From Herbidospora yilanensis (GTDB lineage: Bacteria; Actinomycetota; Actinomycetes; Streptosporangiales; Streptosporangiaceae), in the NCBI RefSeq assembly GCF_001570565.1, contig NZ_BBXE01000039.1, forward strand, positions 1 through 64,000: a stretch of DNA of 64,000 nt, in the 5' to 3' direction. The notes under the pieces were generated by a model. It did not search any database and had not been told where the DNA came from. It saw only the letters and a list, made by a program, of their open reading frames with translations. Made by a program: the position numbers and the translations under genes. Each line of letters begins with the position of its first letter. The stretch's first letter is position 1. Positions 18,287 through 38,698 of the stretch are shown here, one piece after another.

Positions 18287-18302
18287 GAAGGAAGACAACT
18301 AG

Positions 18303-18492
18303 AGATCGCCGAATCCGCGCGCCCCGCGCGGAACCGGGGAACCAGCGAGGACCCGGTGATCACCTCTCTCCCGATCACCACGCACACCCACCGGGTCCTC
18401 TGGGGTGAATCGGCCTGTCAGCCCCTCACGACAGGCCGTAGGGCGGCTTCCACGCCCGAGTCCGTCAGCTAACCCGGTAGGCGCATGGAAGC
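18303..18492 (+). ncRNA. c-di-AMP (ydaO/yuaA) riboswitch
   Basis: The 5' leader of the CHAP gene contains the conserved blocks of the ydaO class in order: GCCGAATCCG (18308-18317), AACCGGGGAACCA (18332-18344), TGGGGTGAATCGG (18401-18413), and CCGTCAGCTAACCCGGTAGG ending near 18481. Intervening stems such as GGCCTGTC/GACAGGCC are also present. In actinobacteria this riboswitch commonly controls cell-wall hydrolase genes and lowers expression when c-di-AMP is high. AAGGAG lies at the riboswitch's 3' edge (18492-18497), 13 nt before the start codon. Confidence 0.9.
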
Positions 18493-18510
18493 AAGGAGTC
18501 AACCCCACCC

Positions 18511-31596: not shown

Positions 31597-32114
31597 GTGA
31601 GCAACTCCCTGAGCTGGGCCTTGGCCCGCATCACACGGGTCTTCACGGTGCCTTCCGGGACGCCGAGCAGGTGCGCGGCCTCCTTCACGGTCAGGCCGTC
31701 GAGGATCGTCGCCTGGATCGCCGCCCGCAGGTCGGGCGACAGCCGGGACAACGCGGTCCCCAGGTCGCCATGCTCGACCGCCCGCAGGACCAGGTCCTCG
31801 GCCGACTCGGTCACACCCGGCTTGCCGGTCACGGGGGCCGGACGGCCGCGCAGCGCGCTGACCAGCCTGCGGATCGCGATCGTCCACAACCACGCTCCCG
31901 CCGCGCCCTCGGAGGGCCGATAGCGGCCGGCGTCCTGCCAGACCGCCACGAACGTGTCCTGCACCGCGCTCTGCACCAGGTCGGGATCGCCGCACCGCCG
32001 CGCCAGCCGCGCCCGCAACCAGGGCGCGTGGCGGTGGTGCAGGACACGCAGCGCCTCCATCTCGCCGCCCGCCACGGCGGCCAGCAAGGCGGCGTCGTCG
32101 CTGTCTGGGCTCAT
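31593..32114 (-). CDS. ECF-type RNA polymerase sigma factor
   Basis: Codes for 173 residues. Sigma-2 covers about 15-85 (SAVQDTFVAVWQDAGRYR; AGAWLWTIAIRRLVSALR). Sigma-4 covers about 118-170 (SPDLRAAIQATILDGLTVKEA; GVPEGTVKTRVMRAKAQL). ATG at 32114 is preferred over one 51 nt upstream because the extra residues lack family character and because the ECF-type promoter below would start just before it. It leads an operon with anti-sigma, ATPase and two membrane proteins. Confidence 0.9.
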   Translation of the reverse strand: MSPDSDDAALLAAVAGGEMEALRVLHHRHAPWLRARLARRCGDPDLVQSAVQDTFVAVWQDAGRYRPSEGAAGAWLWTIAIRRLVSALRGRPAPVTGKPGVTESAEDLVLRAVEHGDLGTALSRLSPDLRAAIQATILDGLTVKEAAHLLGVPEGTVKTRVMRAKAQLRELLT

Positions 32115-32150
32115 ACACCCCCTATCGCGGGAAGGGCCGCGAAAGGTTCC
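32115..32150 (-). promoter_or_regulatory. Probable ECF autoregulatory promoter
   Basis: On the minus strand GGAACC (32145-32150) is followed 18 nt later by GATAGG, resembling ECF promoters with a GGAAC -35 box. It ends a few bases before the sigma gene start, so self-activation is likely. Confidence 0.5.
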
Positions 32151-32201
32151 GCCGGACCTGAACAATTCGGGTGAACTCCGGCGAGCTCACCCGCTACCGT
32201 C

Positions 32202-32939
32202 ATGTTCGTGACCAAGCTCAACCAGATCCTGGCCGTCGAGAAAGGCGTCAAGGCCGACGTCCAGCGCAAGGTGACGGACGCCAACACCCTCATCCAGAAG
32301 GCGCCGCTGCTGTCCGGCATCTCGCGCACCTACCAGCCGATCGACGACGAGGGCGAGCAGCTCCCGCCCGAGTCGACGCGCGTGCAGGTGCAGGCCGAAC
32401 AGGTTCTGCGGGACGTCACGGTCACCCTGACCCGGCTGTTCGACGTCACCGCGACCAAGGACGTGGCCAACTGCTCGGCCAAGGCCGACGTCGTCGTCGA
32501 CGGGACGGTCCTGGTCCGCGACGTGCCGGTGACCTACCTGCTGTTCCTGGAGAAGCAGCTCACCGACCTGCACGGCCTCATCTCCCGGCTGCCCACGCTC
32601 GACCCGTCGGAGACCTGGTCGCTCGACGGCAACACCGACACCTGGCGCACCGAGCCGGTCCGCACCACCCGGACCAAGAAGGTGCCGCGCAACCACGTGC
32701 TCGCCGAGGCGACCGACAAGCACCCGGCCCAGGTGCAGGTCTTCACCGAGGACGTCGTCGTCGGCTACTGGACGCGCGTCGCCTTCTCCGGGGCGCTGCC
32801 CCAGCGGCGCGTCAACGAACTGCTGACCCGGCTGACCAAGTTGCAGGAGGCGGTGAAGTTCGCCCGCGAGGAGGCCAACGGCACCGAGATCACCGACCAG
32901 CGGATCGGTGAGGCGCTGTTCGGTTACCTGCTCGGATGA
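32202..32939 (+). CDS. Conserved actinobacterial protein of unknown function (DUF7873-like)
   Basis: Codes for 245 residues. I recognise the sequence type (TKLNQILAVEKGVK; GISRTYQPIDDEGEQLPPES; LTRLFDVTATKDVANC; VTYLLFLEKQLTDLHG; KFAREEANGTEITDQRIGEA) as a widely conserved actinobacterial family, possibly DUF7873; that name is from memory. There is no signal peptide, membrane segment or known catalytic motif. The start is ATG 32202, or GTG 32208, which lies 7 nt after a -10-like TACCGT. It sits immediately upstream of the permuted tRNA-like units, which makes a link to them worth testing. Confidence 0.75.
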   Translation: MFVTKLNQILAVEKGVKADVQRKVTDANTLIQKAPLLSGISRTYQPIDDEGEQLPPESTRVQVQAEQVLRDVTVTLTRLFDVTATKDVANCSAKADVVVDGTVLVRDVPVTYLLFLEKQLTDLHGLISRLPTLDPSETWSLDGNTDTWRTEPVRTTRTKKVPRNHVLAEATDKHPAQVQVFTEDVVVGYWTRVAFSGALPQRRVNELLTRLTKLQEAVKFAREEANGTEITDQRIGEALFGYLLG

Positions 32940-32949
32940 CCCCAAGGAC

Positions 32950-32969
32950 CCCCGCCCGCGAGGGCGGGG
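32950..32969 (+). terminator. Hairpin with GCGA tetraloop after the conserved gene
   Basis: CCCCGCCC (32950-32957) pairs with GGGCGGGG (32962-32969) around GCGA, a GNRA loop. There is no T-run. It may end the upstream mRNA or be the first structural element of the tRNA-like transcript. Confidence 0.5.
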
Positions 32970-33013
32970 TGCGCGATGAGCGCAAGCTGAAACTGAAGCA
33001 TCACGACTGAACG

Positions 33014-33087
33014 ACGGTGACAGCGCAGGTTCGAATCCTGCCCCCCGCATCCCACGCGGGGGTGGCCCAACCGGTAGAGGCAGCCGT
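33014..33087 (+). tRNA. Candidate circularly permuted tRNA gene, unit 1
   Basis: A tRNA 3' half comes first: anticodon-stem strand ACGGT (33014-33018), variable GACAGC, T-arm GCAGG-TTCGAAT-CCTGC (33025-33041), acceptor strand CCCCCGC (33042-33048) and discriminator A. A linker TCCCAC follows, then the 5' half: acceptor GCGGGGG (33056-33062), TG, D-stem GCC/GGC (33065-33081) and anticodon-stem strand GCCGT (33083-33087). The acceptor strands pair 7 of 7; the anticodon strands pair 5 of 5 (one G-U). No partner for either half exists in normal order. The anticodon loop would be made by joining the halves, so identity is undecided; CAA (5' side) and GAA (3' side) are the candidates. No CCA is encoded. 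Confidence 0.62.
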
Positions 33088-33124
33088 TCAAACTCAGGCT
33101 CTCGCTCCAGACTCAGCATTGCCG

Positions 33125-33144
33125 CCGGTCGCCGGAGCGACCGG
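33125..33144 (+). repeat. Stable hairpin between the two tRNA-like units
   Basis: CCGGTCGC (33125-33132) pairs perfectly with GCGACCGG (33137-33144) around CGGA. It lies between the 5' half of unit 1 and the 3' half of unit 2 and may separate or help fold the two precursors. Confidence 0.6.
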
Positions 33145-33243
33145 TCACGGACGAAAGTCGTCAGGTTGGGGGTTCGAATCCCACCGGGTGCTCTCCCTGC
33201 GCCCGTAGCTCAACGGAAGAGCGGACGACATGACCGTGATCCG
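33145..33243 (+). tRNA. Candidate circularly permuted tRNA gene, unit 2
   Basis: The 3' half is anticodon-stem strand GTCGTC (33157-33162), variable AGGTT, T-stem GGGGG/CCCAC (4 of 5 pairs) with loop TTCGAAT, acceptor CGGGTGC (33185-33191) and T. A linker CTCCCT follows. The 5' half is acceptor GCGCCCG (33199-33205), TA, D-arm GCTC-AACGGAA-GAGC (33208-33222), G, and anticodon-stem strand GACGAC (33224-33229). Acceptor strands pair 7 of 7, including a G3-U70 wobble; anticodon strands pair 6 of 6. Outside this, CCGTGA (33234-33239) pairs with TCACGG (33145-33150), bringing the half ends together across the loops ATGA and ACGAAA. The anticodon depends on the unknown junction. Confidence 0.66.
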
Positions 33244-33281
33244 TGGCCTTCAAAGGCTCCGGCACCGCGATGTGGCGGCGT

Positions 33282-33326
33282 AACGGCCCCCGGGATTCAG
33301 GGTATTTCCTGGGGGCCACCGCCGTT
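33282..33326. terminator. Bidirectional hairpin between tRNA-like array and MerR gene
   Basis: AACGGCCCCC (33282-33291) faces GGGGGCC (33311-33317) and GCCGTT (33321-33326) around a 19-nt loop, with a 3-nt bulge. It sits where transcripts from the plus-strand array and the minus-strand MerR gene converge. Confidence 0.6.
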
Positions 33327-33334
33327 CGCGGGTG

Positions 33335-33658
33335 TCAGTCGCGCCGGCGGAGTTCCTCGTTCATGCGCAGCGCCTCGGCGAGCTGGTCTTCCAGGATGAT
33401 GATGCGGCACGCCGCCTCCACCGGGGTGCCGCCGTCGACGAGTTCGCGGGCGCGGGCGGCCAGCCGGAGCTGATAGCGGGAGAAGCGGCGGTGACCTCCC
33501 TCGCTGCGCAGCGGCTCGATCAGCTTGGCGGCGCCGAGACTGCGGAGGAAGGCCGGGGTGACACCGAGGATCTCGGCGGCCCGGCCCATGCTGTACGCGG
33601 GATAGTCCTCATCGTCGAACCGTTGTTCTGAGGCTGACGCCTGATGTGCTTGATCCAC
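33335..33658 (-). CDS. Short MerR-family regulator
   Basis: Codes for 107 residues. The MerR HTH is YSMGRAAEILGVTPAFLRSL with wing LRSEGGHRRFSRYQLRLAA (about residues 22-70), then a short dimerisation helix and no ligand domain. GTG at 33658 follows AGGAAGG by 4 nt. The upstream leader carries a strong hairpin and a possible short coding sequence, suggesting control of transcript elongation. Targets are unknown. Confidence 0.85.
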   Translation of the reverse strand: MDQAHQASASEQRFDDEDYPAYSMGRAAEILGVTPAFLRSLGAAKLIEPLRSEGGHRRFSRYQLRLAARARELVDGGTPVEAACRIIILEDQLAEALRMNEELRRRD

Positions 33659-33683
33659 TCAACCTTCCTGAAAACGCGAACAG

Positions 33684-33713
33684 GGGCCCCGGCGCGGTGA
33701 TGCGCCGGGGCCC
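33684..33713 (-). terminator. Perfect 12-bp hairpin in the MerR leader (possible attenuator)
   Basis: GGGCCCCGGCGC (33684-33695) is the exact reverse complement of GCGCCGGGGCCC (33702-33713) around a 6-nt loop. Read on the minus strand, it is followed by a tract containing GTTTTC and then by the ribosome site of the MerR gene. It is placed like an intrinsic terminator between leader and gene. Confidence 0.65.
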
Positions 33714-38251: not shown

Positions 38252-38698
38252 ATGACCACACGACCGCTCTCCCCCGACGAGGACGCGCTGGTTCGCGCGC
38301 TGCCCCGGCTCATGTACGCCCTCCCCCGGGCGATCGACGCCGACATGGTGCGCGAGCAGCAGCTCCCGCTGATCGAGTGGACCGCCCTGATGCGCCTGTC
38401 GGAGGCCCCGCGGCGGCGGATGCGGATGGGCGAGCTCGCCACCGCGTGCGAGTTGTCGCTGAGCGGCATGACCCGCATCGCCAACGTGCTGGAGAGACAG
38501 GGCCTCATCGAACGGGTCAGGAGCGACGAGGACGCCCGGGGCTGGAACGCCGTCATCACCGACGCCGGCCTGGCCCGCCTCGAACGGGCCTGGCCGACCA
38601 ACCTGGCCAGCGTGCGGCGGCACCTGCTCGACCACCTCGACGGCATCGACGTCGCCCGCCTGGCCCGCGCTATCGAGAAGGTCGCCCTCGCCGACTGA
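38252..38698 (+). CDS. MarR-family regulator
   Basis: Codes for 148 residues from ATG 38252 (a GTG lies 6 nt earlier). The winged HTH is RMRMGELATACELSLSGMTRI (about 56-76), with LERQGLIERVRSDEDARGW as wing. It is probably the repressor of the divergent SDR gene and of itself through the repeats upstream. Confidence 0.88.
   Translation: MTTRPLSPDEDALVRALPRLMYALPRAIDADMVREQQLPLIEWTALMRLSEAPRRRMRMGELATACELSLSGMTRIANVLERQGLIERVRSDEDARGWNAVITDAGLARLERAWPTNLASVRRHLLDHLDGIDVARLARAIEKVALAD

Follow-up and report, generated by a model that had tools for sequence, protein, structure and literature searches.

A 64,000-nucleotide (nt) stretch of Herbidospora yilanensis DNA (contig NZ_BBXE01000039.1, positions 1 to 64,000, forward strand), referred to below as the window, carries a gene for a protein of the DUF7873 family and, just 3' of it, an intergenic stretch of about 370 nt holding two units that resemble transfer RNAs (tRNAs) with their halves in reversed order. 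The protein matched PF25283 over residues 4-244 (389 bits, E 1.3e-116; Pfam cut-off 27 bits). In unit 2 (33157-33229, + strand), the order of a tRNA fold is reversed, its 3' half lying ahead of its 5' half; a second such unit, unit 1, was found at 33013-33088 (+). The initial annotation had described the reversed order in unit 2 and read it as a permuted tRNA gene joined in the anticodon loop. The letters and positions that it gave for this order were confirmed: the acceptor strands pair 7 of 7, one pair being G-U, the anticodon-stem strands GACGAC and GTCGTC pair 6 of 6, and the variable region has 5 nt. The T-arm, described as complete, is present, with an imperfect T-stem (33169-33183 is G.A). 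ARAGORN found no tRNA at 32900-33400. A geometric scan of the window returned just units 1 and 2 on the + strand (scores 18 and 19) and three weaker matches (scores 15-16) on the - strand.

Relatives of DUF7873 were recovered by protein search from 26 viral loci, 73 phage records and at least 551 genome contigs, the best genome matches being Herbidospora species with 96-98% identity. The genome scan covered the best 80 of the 551 confirmed relatives, all Actinomycetota, and figures for 81 genome loci therefore describe close relatives including the window. A permuted unit was present no more than 520 nt downstream of DUF7873 in all 81, with two units in 65 and one in 16. The viral loci held two units in 11 cases, one in 11 and none in 4. 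Of 514 control stretches, 6 reached a score of 17 in the same scan, as did 4 of 2140 mononucleotide shuffles; because matches in the window, controls and shuffles were this few, the reversed tRNA halves are not due to chance. Among units pre-selected at 6/7 pairs or better, acceptor pairing was 7/7 in 67 of 71 distinct acceptor pairs, compared with 128 of 4970 swapped partners.

Eight of the 73 phage records, plus phage GodonK, were examined. In six of the eight (phages of Klebsiella, Rhizobium, Vibrio, Pseudanabaena, Arthrobacter, Gordonia, Rhodococcus and Microcoleus), a unit with 7/7 pairing lay within 350 nt; Gordonia phage Keelan had its unit at +533, and the Microcoleus phage gave just a weak 6/7 match near a HEARO RNA. 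GodonK carried two units. The HEARO RNA of Microcoleus phage My-WqHQDG (L157:2441-2650, 129 bits) stands downstream of DUF7873, where the tRNA-like RNA was expected. The 16 genome loci with a single unit kept the flanking scaffold, and a short stretch without tRNA-like parts replaced unit 1. This place was located by script in 12 of the 16 and held no T-loop-bearing unit, mostly a hairpin and, in one locus (L134), almost nothing; the remaining four were read by eye.

The window sequence folded alone was unusually stable (z -3.6; none of 100 shuffles as stable) and resembled the RNAalifold consensus of 23 non-redundant two-unit loci, in which a leading hairpin is followed by arm 1, capped by unit 1, and arm 2, capped by unit 2 (Table 1). 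The 23 loci were chosen by the authors from the 65 with two units, and three further alignments were likewise hand-chosen: 37 loci (A2), 26 genome loci with no viral ones (A3) and 27 of 30 prepared loci (A4). The initial annotation had named compensatory changes in relatives as a check on its reading, and these proved strong. Both-side changes occurred in 22 of the 31 pairs of arm 2, where 97.4% of cells were paired, and in 11 of the 16 pairs of unit 1. None of 500 shuffles of arm 2 scored as high on any of five measures, and slides were also far lower. In basal helix 1 of arm 2, four of six consensus pairs changed on both sides, the sixth (33130-33264) being C.A in the window; in outer helix 2, seven of nine pairs did so across 26 sequences. 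An outer helix proposed earlier (CCGTGA, 33234-33239, with TCACGG, 33145-33150) is not the conserved one: its 5' letters belong to outer helix 2, which pairs GGTCACGGA with TCCGTGGCC. At the level of sequence, the permuted halves and their compensatory changes are evident. The predicted anatomy, a structured RNA of about 370 nt with two arms that each bear a tRNA-like module, is in our view very likely to be correct.

Table 1. Coordinates of the DUF7873 gene and of the predicted elements of the adjoining RNA in the window
Feature	Position	Strand	Remarks
DUF7873 protein gene, 245 aa	32202-32939	+	Pfam PF25283
Structured non-coding RNA, ends approximate	32945-33322	+	RNAalifold consensus of 23 loci; window fold; presumed transcript
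Arm-1 stem, 5' strand (GCTGA..CTGAAGC)	32986-32999	+	Consensus fold of two-unit loci; window fold
Unit 1, strand GACGGT	33013-33018	+	
Unit 1, T-arm	33025-33041	+	
Unit 1, 3' acceptor	33042-33048	+	Then A 33049
Unit 1, linker	33050-33055	+	
Unit 1, 5' acceptor	33056-33062	+	
Unit 1, D-arm	33065-33081	+	
Unit 1, strand GCCGTT	33083-33088	+	
Arm-1 stem, 3' strand (GCTCCAG.CTCAGC)	33104-33117	+	Consensus fold; window fold
Arm-2 basal helix 1, 5' strand	33131-33135	+	Pairs with 33259-33263
Arm-2 outer helix 2, 5' strand GGTCACGGA	33143-33151	+	Pairs with 33240-33248
Unit 2, anticodon-stem strand GTCGTC	33157-33162	+	Letters checked
Unit 2, variable region, 5 nt	33163-33167	+	
Unit 2, T-arm	33168-33184	+	
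Unit 2, 3' acceptor CGGGTGC	33185-33191	+	Then T 33192
Unit 2, linker CTCCCT	33193-33198	+	
Unit 2, 5' acceptor GCGCCCG	33199-33205	+	Then TA
Unit 2, D-arm	33208-33222	+	
Unit 2, anticodon-stem strand GACGAC	33224-33229	+	
Arm-2 outer helix 2, 3' strand TCCGTGGCC	33240-33248	+	Pairs with 33143-33151
Arm-2 basal helix 1, 3' strand	33259-33263	+	Pairs with 33131-33135
Hairpin GGCCCCC/GGGGGCC, possible 3' end	33285-33317	+	No T-run, so not scored as intrinsic terminator

Both strands of the arm-1 stem (window 32986-33117) show a pattern of period 6, N-U-N-A-R-N as judged by eye, which also appears in phage copies and is perhaps a repeated protein contact. Near arm 1, the period-6 stretches (AAGCTGAAACTGAAG..) can be read by eye as alternating K/R and L codons, but coding was rejected, also by eye, because single-base insertions and deletions between species (e.g., in L073 and L083) break the frame.

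Permuted tRNA genes occur in unicellular algae and one archaeon. If the units were such genes, the transcript would be cut and joined at the anticodon end and opened at the acceptor linker to yield a working tRNA. The order of the halves and the complementary acceptor (7/7) and anticodon-stem (6/6) strands resemble those of circularly permuted tRNA genes, a lenient frame with U33 can be drawn in both units of the window, and the Herbidospora genome encodes RtcB, although this gene is widespread, being present in 9 of 14 control genomes. Since the lenient frame exists in the window's own units, the case against a permuted tRNA gene rests on the relatives, in which neither U33 nor the anticodon is conserved. 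At the canonical position, U33 was present in 4 of the 66 distinct unit-1 sequences and in 16 of the 82 distinct unit-2 sequences; the best 5-bp frame gave 17/66 and 17/82, and free choice among frames with 4/5 pairs or more gave 31/66 and 35/82. The count depends on the frame, which slightly raises the probability of a tRNA gene; the canonical-position count alone overstates the case, and the test is less sharp but still speaks against one. The best variable region measured 3-4 nt in 62 of the 82 unit-2 sequences. Beyond the would-be junction, the ends that should be open continue into conserved, covarying helices. Unit 1 is dispensable, being missing in 16 of 81 genome loci, and the halves are not kept as a unit in homologues. 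Joining in the anticodon loop is therefore unsupported, and we regard the production of a working tRNA in this way as very unlikely; the reversed halves are real, conserved and widespread, and they most likely do not constitute a permuted tRNA gene.

For arm 2, the unit-2 arm, a covariance model (R1) was searched against 150 Streptomyces genomes and 60 genomes of relatives. The assignment of the 150 to Streptomyces draws on a check of 20 of them: one matched Streptomyces echinatus (L114) identically over 1251 bases, and for each of the 20 the closest of the loci L065-L144 was a Streptomyces one. In Streptomyces, the 69 genomes with DUF7873, and no others, gave scores of 76.5-156.3 bits, and the top score in the 81 DUF7873-negative genomes was 51.2 bits. 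Among the relatives, scores of at least 89.6 bits were obtained in exactly the 14 DUF7873-positive genomes, with the 46 negatives at 46.0 bits or lower. Judged by these scores, the unit-2 arm strictly co-occurs with DUF7873 in the genomes searched. Two groups were recognised among the lower-scoring matches. One was the tRNA-like core of units beside TROVE/Ro60 genes (40.7 bits at G000:C27:56437 and 50.2 bits at G005:C20:377182); the other was tandem identical tRNA-Asn genes of Streptomyces, with 42.9-46.6 bits at the three loci checked (L145, L146 and L147). The junctions of tandem tRNA-Asn genes mimic a permuted tRNA and are a false-positive class for such scans.

These weaker tRNA-Asn matches speak for reading the locus as a decayed or rearranged tandem tRNA array, where neighbouring tRNAs, one by its 3' end and the following one by its 5' start, would mimic reversed halves. 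Against this, no complete tRNAs flank the junction, and ARAGORN detected none in the region. In the 76 two-unit loci, with units pre-selected at 6 or more pairs, the conventional order (unit-1 5' half with unit-2 3' half) paired 7/7 just twice, and the permuted order paired 7/7 in both units in 72. A tandem array thus appears extremely improbable.

The best Rfam match on unit 2 was YrlA (RF02553; 38.4 bits, E 5e-7), which spanned 33144-33243 and the full length of the model (positions 1-114). The YrlA match on unit 1 (33004-33103) reached 20 bits, which alone is not significant. According to PMC8394870, YrlA mimics the D-, T- and acceptor-arm of a tRNA above a basal stem; DusA and TruB modify it, and it binds PNPase and Ro60. 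The tRNA mimicry of bacterial Y RNAs has been described as part of Ro60 particles, and PMC7790460 suggests that YrlA may competitively inhibit an anticodon nuclease. As indicated by the Rfam alignment and covariation, the DUF7873 locus likewise has a tRNA-like module in which a basal stem bears T, acceptor and D arms. In both RNAs, T-arm, acceptor and D-arm are permuted, the acceptor end is closed by a loop, and the anticodon end runs on as the basal stem. Unlike YrlA, which adjoins Ro60, the RNA adjoins DUF7873, and it carries one or two modules on a conserved scaffold of about 370 nt, compared with one module in YrlA, an RNA of 90-150 nt according to PMC8394870.

Ro60-side Y RNAs of related actinobacteria gave YrlA scores of 33-48 bits, below the gathering score of 69 bits (10 of 13 sources listed, two of them one locus), so a sub-threshold score is normal for such RNAs in these actinobacteria; the 38.4 bits of unit 2 fall inside this range. 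DUF7873-side units scored 20-41 bits where listed, also below 69. Matches under the cut-off are non-specific, and 13 of 14 control genomes showed them. Contig 27 of the Herbidospora genome likewise carries permuted units, a pair of which (36.3 and 33.3 bits) adjoins a TROVE/Ro60 gene. This second unit pair lies upstream of the Ro60 gene, at C27:56259-56522 (L002, L148). In Spongiactinospora sp. TRM90649 (L081:4001-7213), DUF7873, a two-unit RNA, two more permuted units and Ro60 were found in one stretch. No TROVE match was detected in 29 of the 69 DUF7873-positive Streptomyces genomes, and Ro60 therefore seems not to be required for the DUF7873 RNA.

We consider it probable that the locus is a two-component cassette, consisting of the DUF7873 gene and a Ro60-independent, YrlA-like tRNA-mimic RNA of which DUF7873 is the probable protein partner. 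The RNA of about 370 nt is presumably transcribed. In each module, the acceptor end would be closed by a short loop and the anticodon end replaced by a stem that enters the RNA body. DUF7873 would bind this body, taking the place that Ro60 has in Ro60-Y RNA particles, and the modules, as tRNA mimics, could recruit, tether or decoy tRNA-handling proteins (TruB, DusA and PNPase in the case of YrlA). Neither decoding nor ligation in the anticodon loop would be needed. We give about even odds to a tether or decoy function of the modules. The cassette lies among tRNA genes in several phages, which fits a role in tRNA handling; no tRNA genes were present in the Klebsiella, Pseudanabaena and Microcoleus phage stretches examined.

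Several findings weigh against this cassette. Neither unit reached the YrlA gathering score, and no YrlA match at E ≤ 0.5 was listed for five loci (L018, L152, L153, L156 and L157). By tblastn with the genome's own Ro60, a Ro60 gene was found in the flanks of one of 106 DUF7873 loci, that of Spongiactinospora; the same query recovered 9 of 11 known Ro60 loci, and distant copies could escape it. Within Streptomyces, DUF7873 and TROVE were independent (TROVE in 40/69 DUF7873-positive vs 41/81 negative genomes, p 0.41). Because of this independence and the rarity of an adjacent Ro60, the link to the Y-RNA pathway is one of analogy only. The two genes did co-occur class-wide (19/28 vs 24/268) and in the 60 relatives (12/14 vs 10/46), associations that look phylogenetic. 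A functional DUF7873-Ro60 link drawn from co-occurrence was rejected, as it is absent within Streptomyces, beyond the single adjacent case. The predicted fold of DUF7873 found no clear match, and for that reason RNA binding by the protein is stated here as a presumption. In 8 of the 12 single-unit loci, the arm-1 5' strand paired locally when the segment was isolated, and the arm-1 stem was unseen. Four of the 26 viral loci had no unit within 520 nt downstream of DUF7873, one of which stops 119 nt past the matched stretch. Finally, an encoded CCA follows the acceptor more often than chance predicts, and a loop that is never opened would not need it.

A pure mimic does not account for this CCA excess, which leaves room for another reading: RNase P and 3'-end enzymes would excise the linkers and leave a multi-piece RNA with one or two CCA ends, possibly aminoacylated. 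Two-piece transfer-messenger RNA (tmRNA) offers a parallel, with a tRNA-like acceptor domain and a permuted bacterial gene; in PMC3978253, permuted tmRNA genes are treated as an accepted class among the permuted RNA genes of bacteria, and their breaks stay unligated. Among distinct viral unit-2 linkers, 10 of 20 have CCA immediately 3' of the discriminator (shuffled mean 0.6), as do 6 of 11 named-phage units (0.5; three matches that were weak or overlapped a tRNA, and the two units of GodonK, are excluded) and 12 of 64 genome unit-2 linkers (1.8). The count for viral unit-1 linkers (2/9; shuffled mean 0.3) does not exceed the highest shuffle (2), and that for genome unit-1 linkers (13/60; 3.1) is close to it (10). 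An encoded CCA is absent from the majority of genome units, the window's two (ATCCCAC and TCTCCCT) among them, and some linkers have just 4 nt counting the discriminator. Weak beta-tmRNA matches of about 25 bits, far under the cut-off of 84, appeared in two of the eight named-phage loci scanned (L150 and L152), and no tmRNA-family match was listed by Rfam for the window region at E ≤ 10. On balance, we consider a multi-piece RNA unlikely. It is likewise unlikely, in our estimate, that the cassette represents a bacterial and phage class of ribonucleoprotein in which the DUF7873-bound RNA would have its arms opened at the linker and chargeable CCA ends, either encoded or, in actinobacteria, added, so as to present two aminoacyl ends without decoding.

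In 103 of 107 loci, units lay downstream of DUF7873 and shared its strand, in a scan confined to that side, and a search of 31900-33700 limited to the sigma-70 consensus gave no promoter-like site. Both results are compatible with a cis element of the DUF7873 mRNA, namely a regulator or stabiliser in the 3' untranslated region with tRNA-like arms that would be read by tRNA-binding proteins. The size of the RNA, its two arms and its likeness to Ro60-side Y RNAs better fit a trans-acting RNA, and a cis element is in our opinion quite doubtful. A terminator scan gave no terminator-like site.

GOLLD, ROOL and HEARO are large structured RNAs in phages and bacteria, a description that the DUF7873-linked RNA shares. 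None of the three was listed for the window by Rfam, HEARO being seen just as a neighbour in the one phage, and no Rfam family at the DUF7873-linked RNA reached its cut-off.

If the cassette is as proposed, Streptomyces and phages have an RNA that reuses a YrlA-type module, often as a pair, alongside another probable protein partner, and tRNA-like modules have been gained or lost on one RNA scaffold. DUF7873, a family of unknown function, would gain a testable role. The locus is also a warning that tRNA halves in permuted order, when met in bacteria, may belong to mimics and not to genes for tRNAs. A literature search, mostly without subscription papers and without bioRxiv preprints, found no publication on DUF7873 or its adjoining RNA.

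DUF7873 was present in 69 of the 150 Streptomyces species sampled, and the hosts of phages with the cassette were Gordonia, Arthrobacter, Rhodococcus, Rhizobium, Klebsiella, Vibrio and Pseudanabaena. A comparison of 30 hand-chosen loci revealed no widely common neighbour gene, the top cluster occurring in 5 of the 30 once an open reading frame read through the RNA itself was set aside. Two of four plasmid matches to DUF7873 were taken for study; on the Streptomyces flavofungini plasmid (L158), IS630 and IS5 family transposases directly follow the DUF7873 RNA.

Elsewhere in the window, ARAGORN called a tRNA-Ser(cga) at 38528-38615 (- strand) that was not reported by the Rfam tRNA model at its gathering score and is probably spurious. 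A cyclic di-AMP (c-di-AMP) riboswitch (RF00379, 73.8 bits) was detected at 18297-18498.
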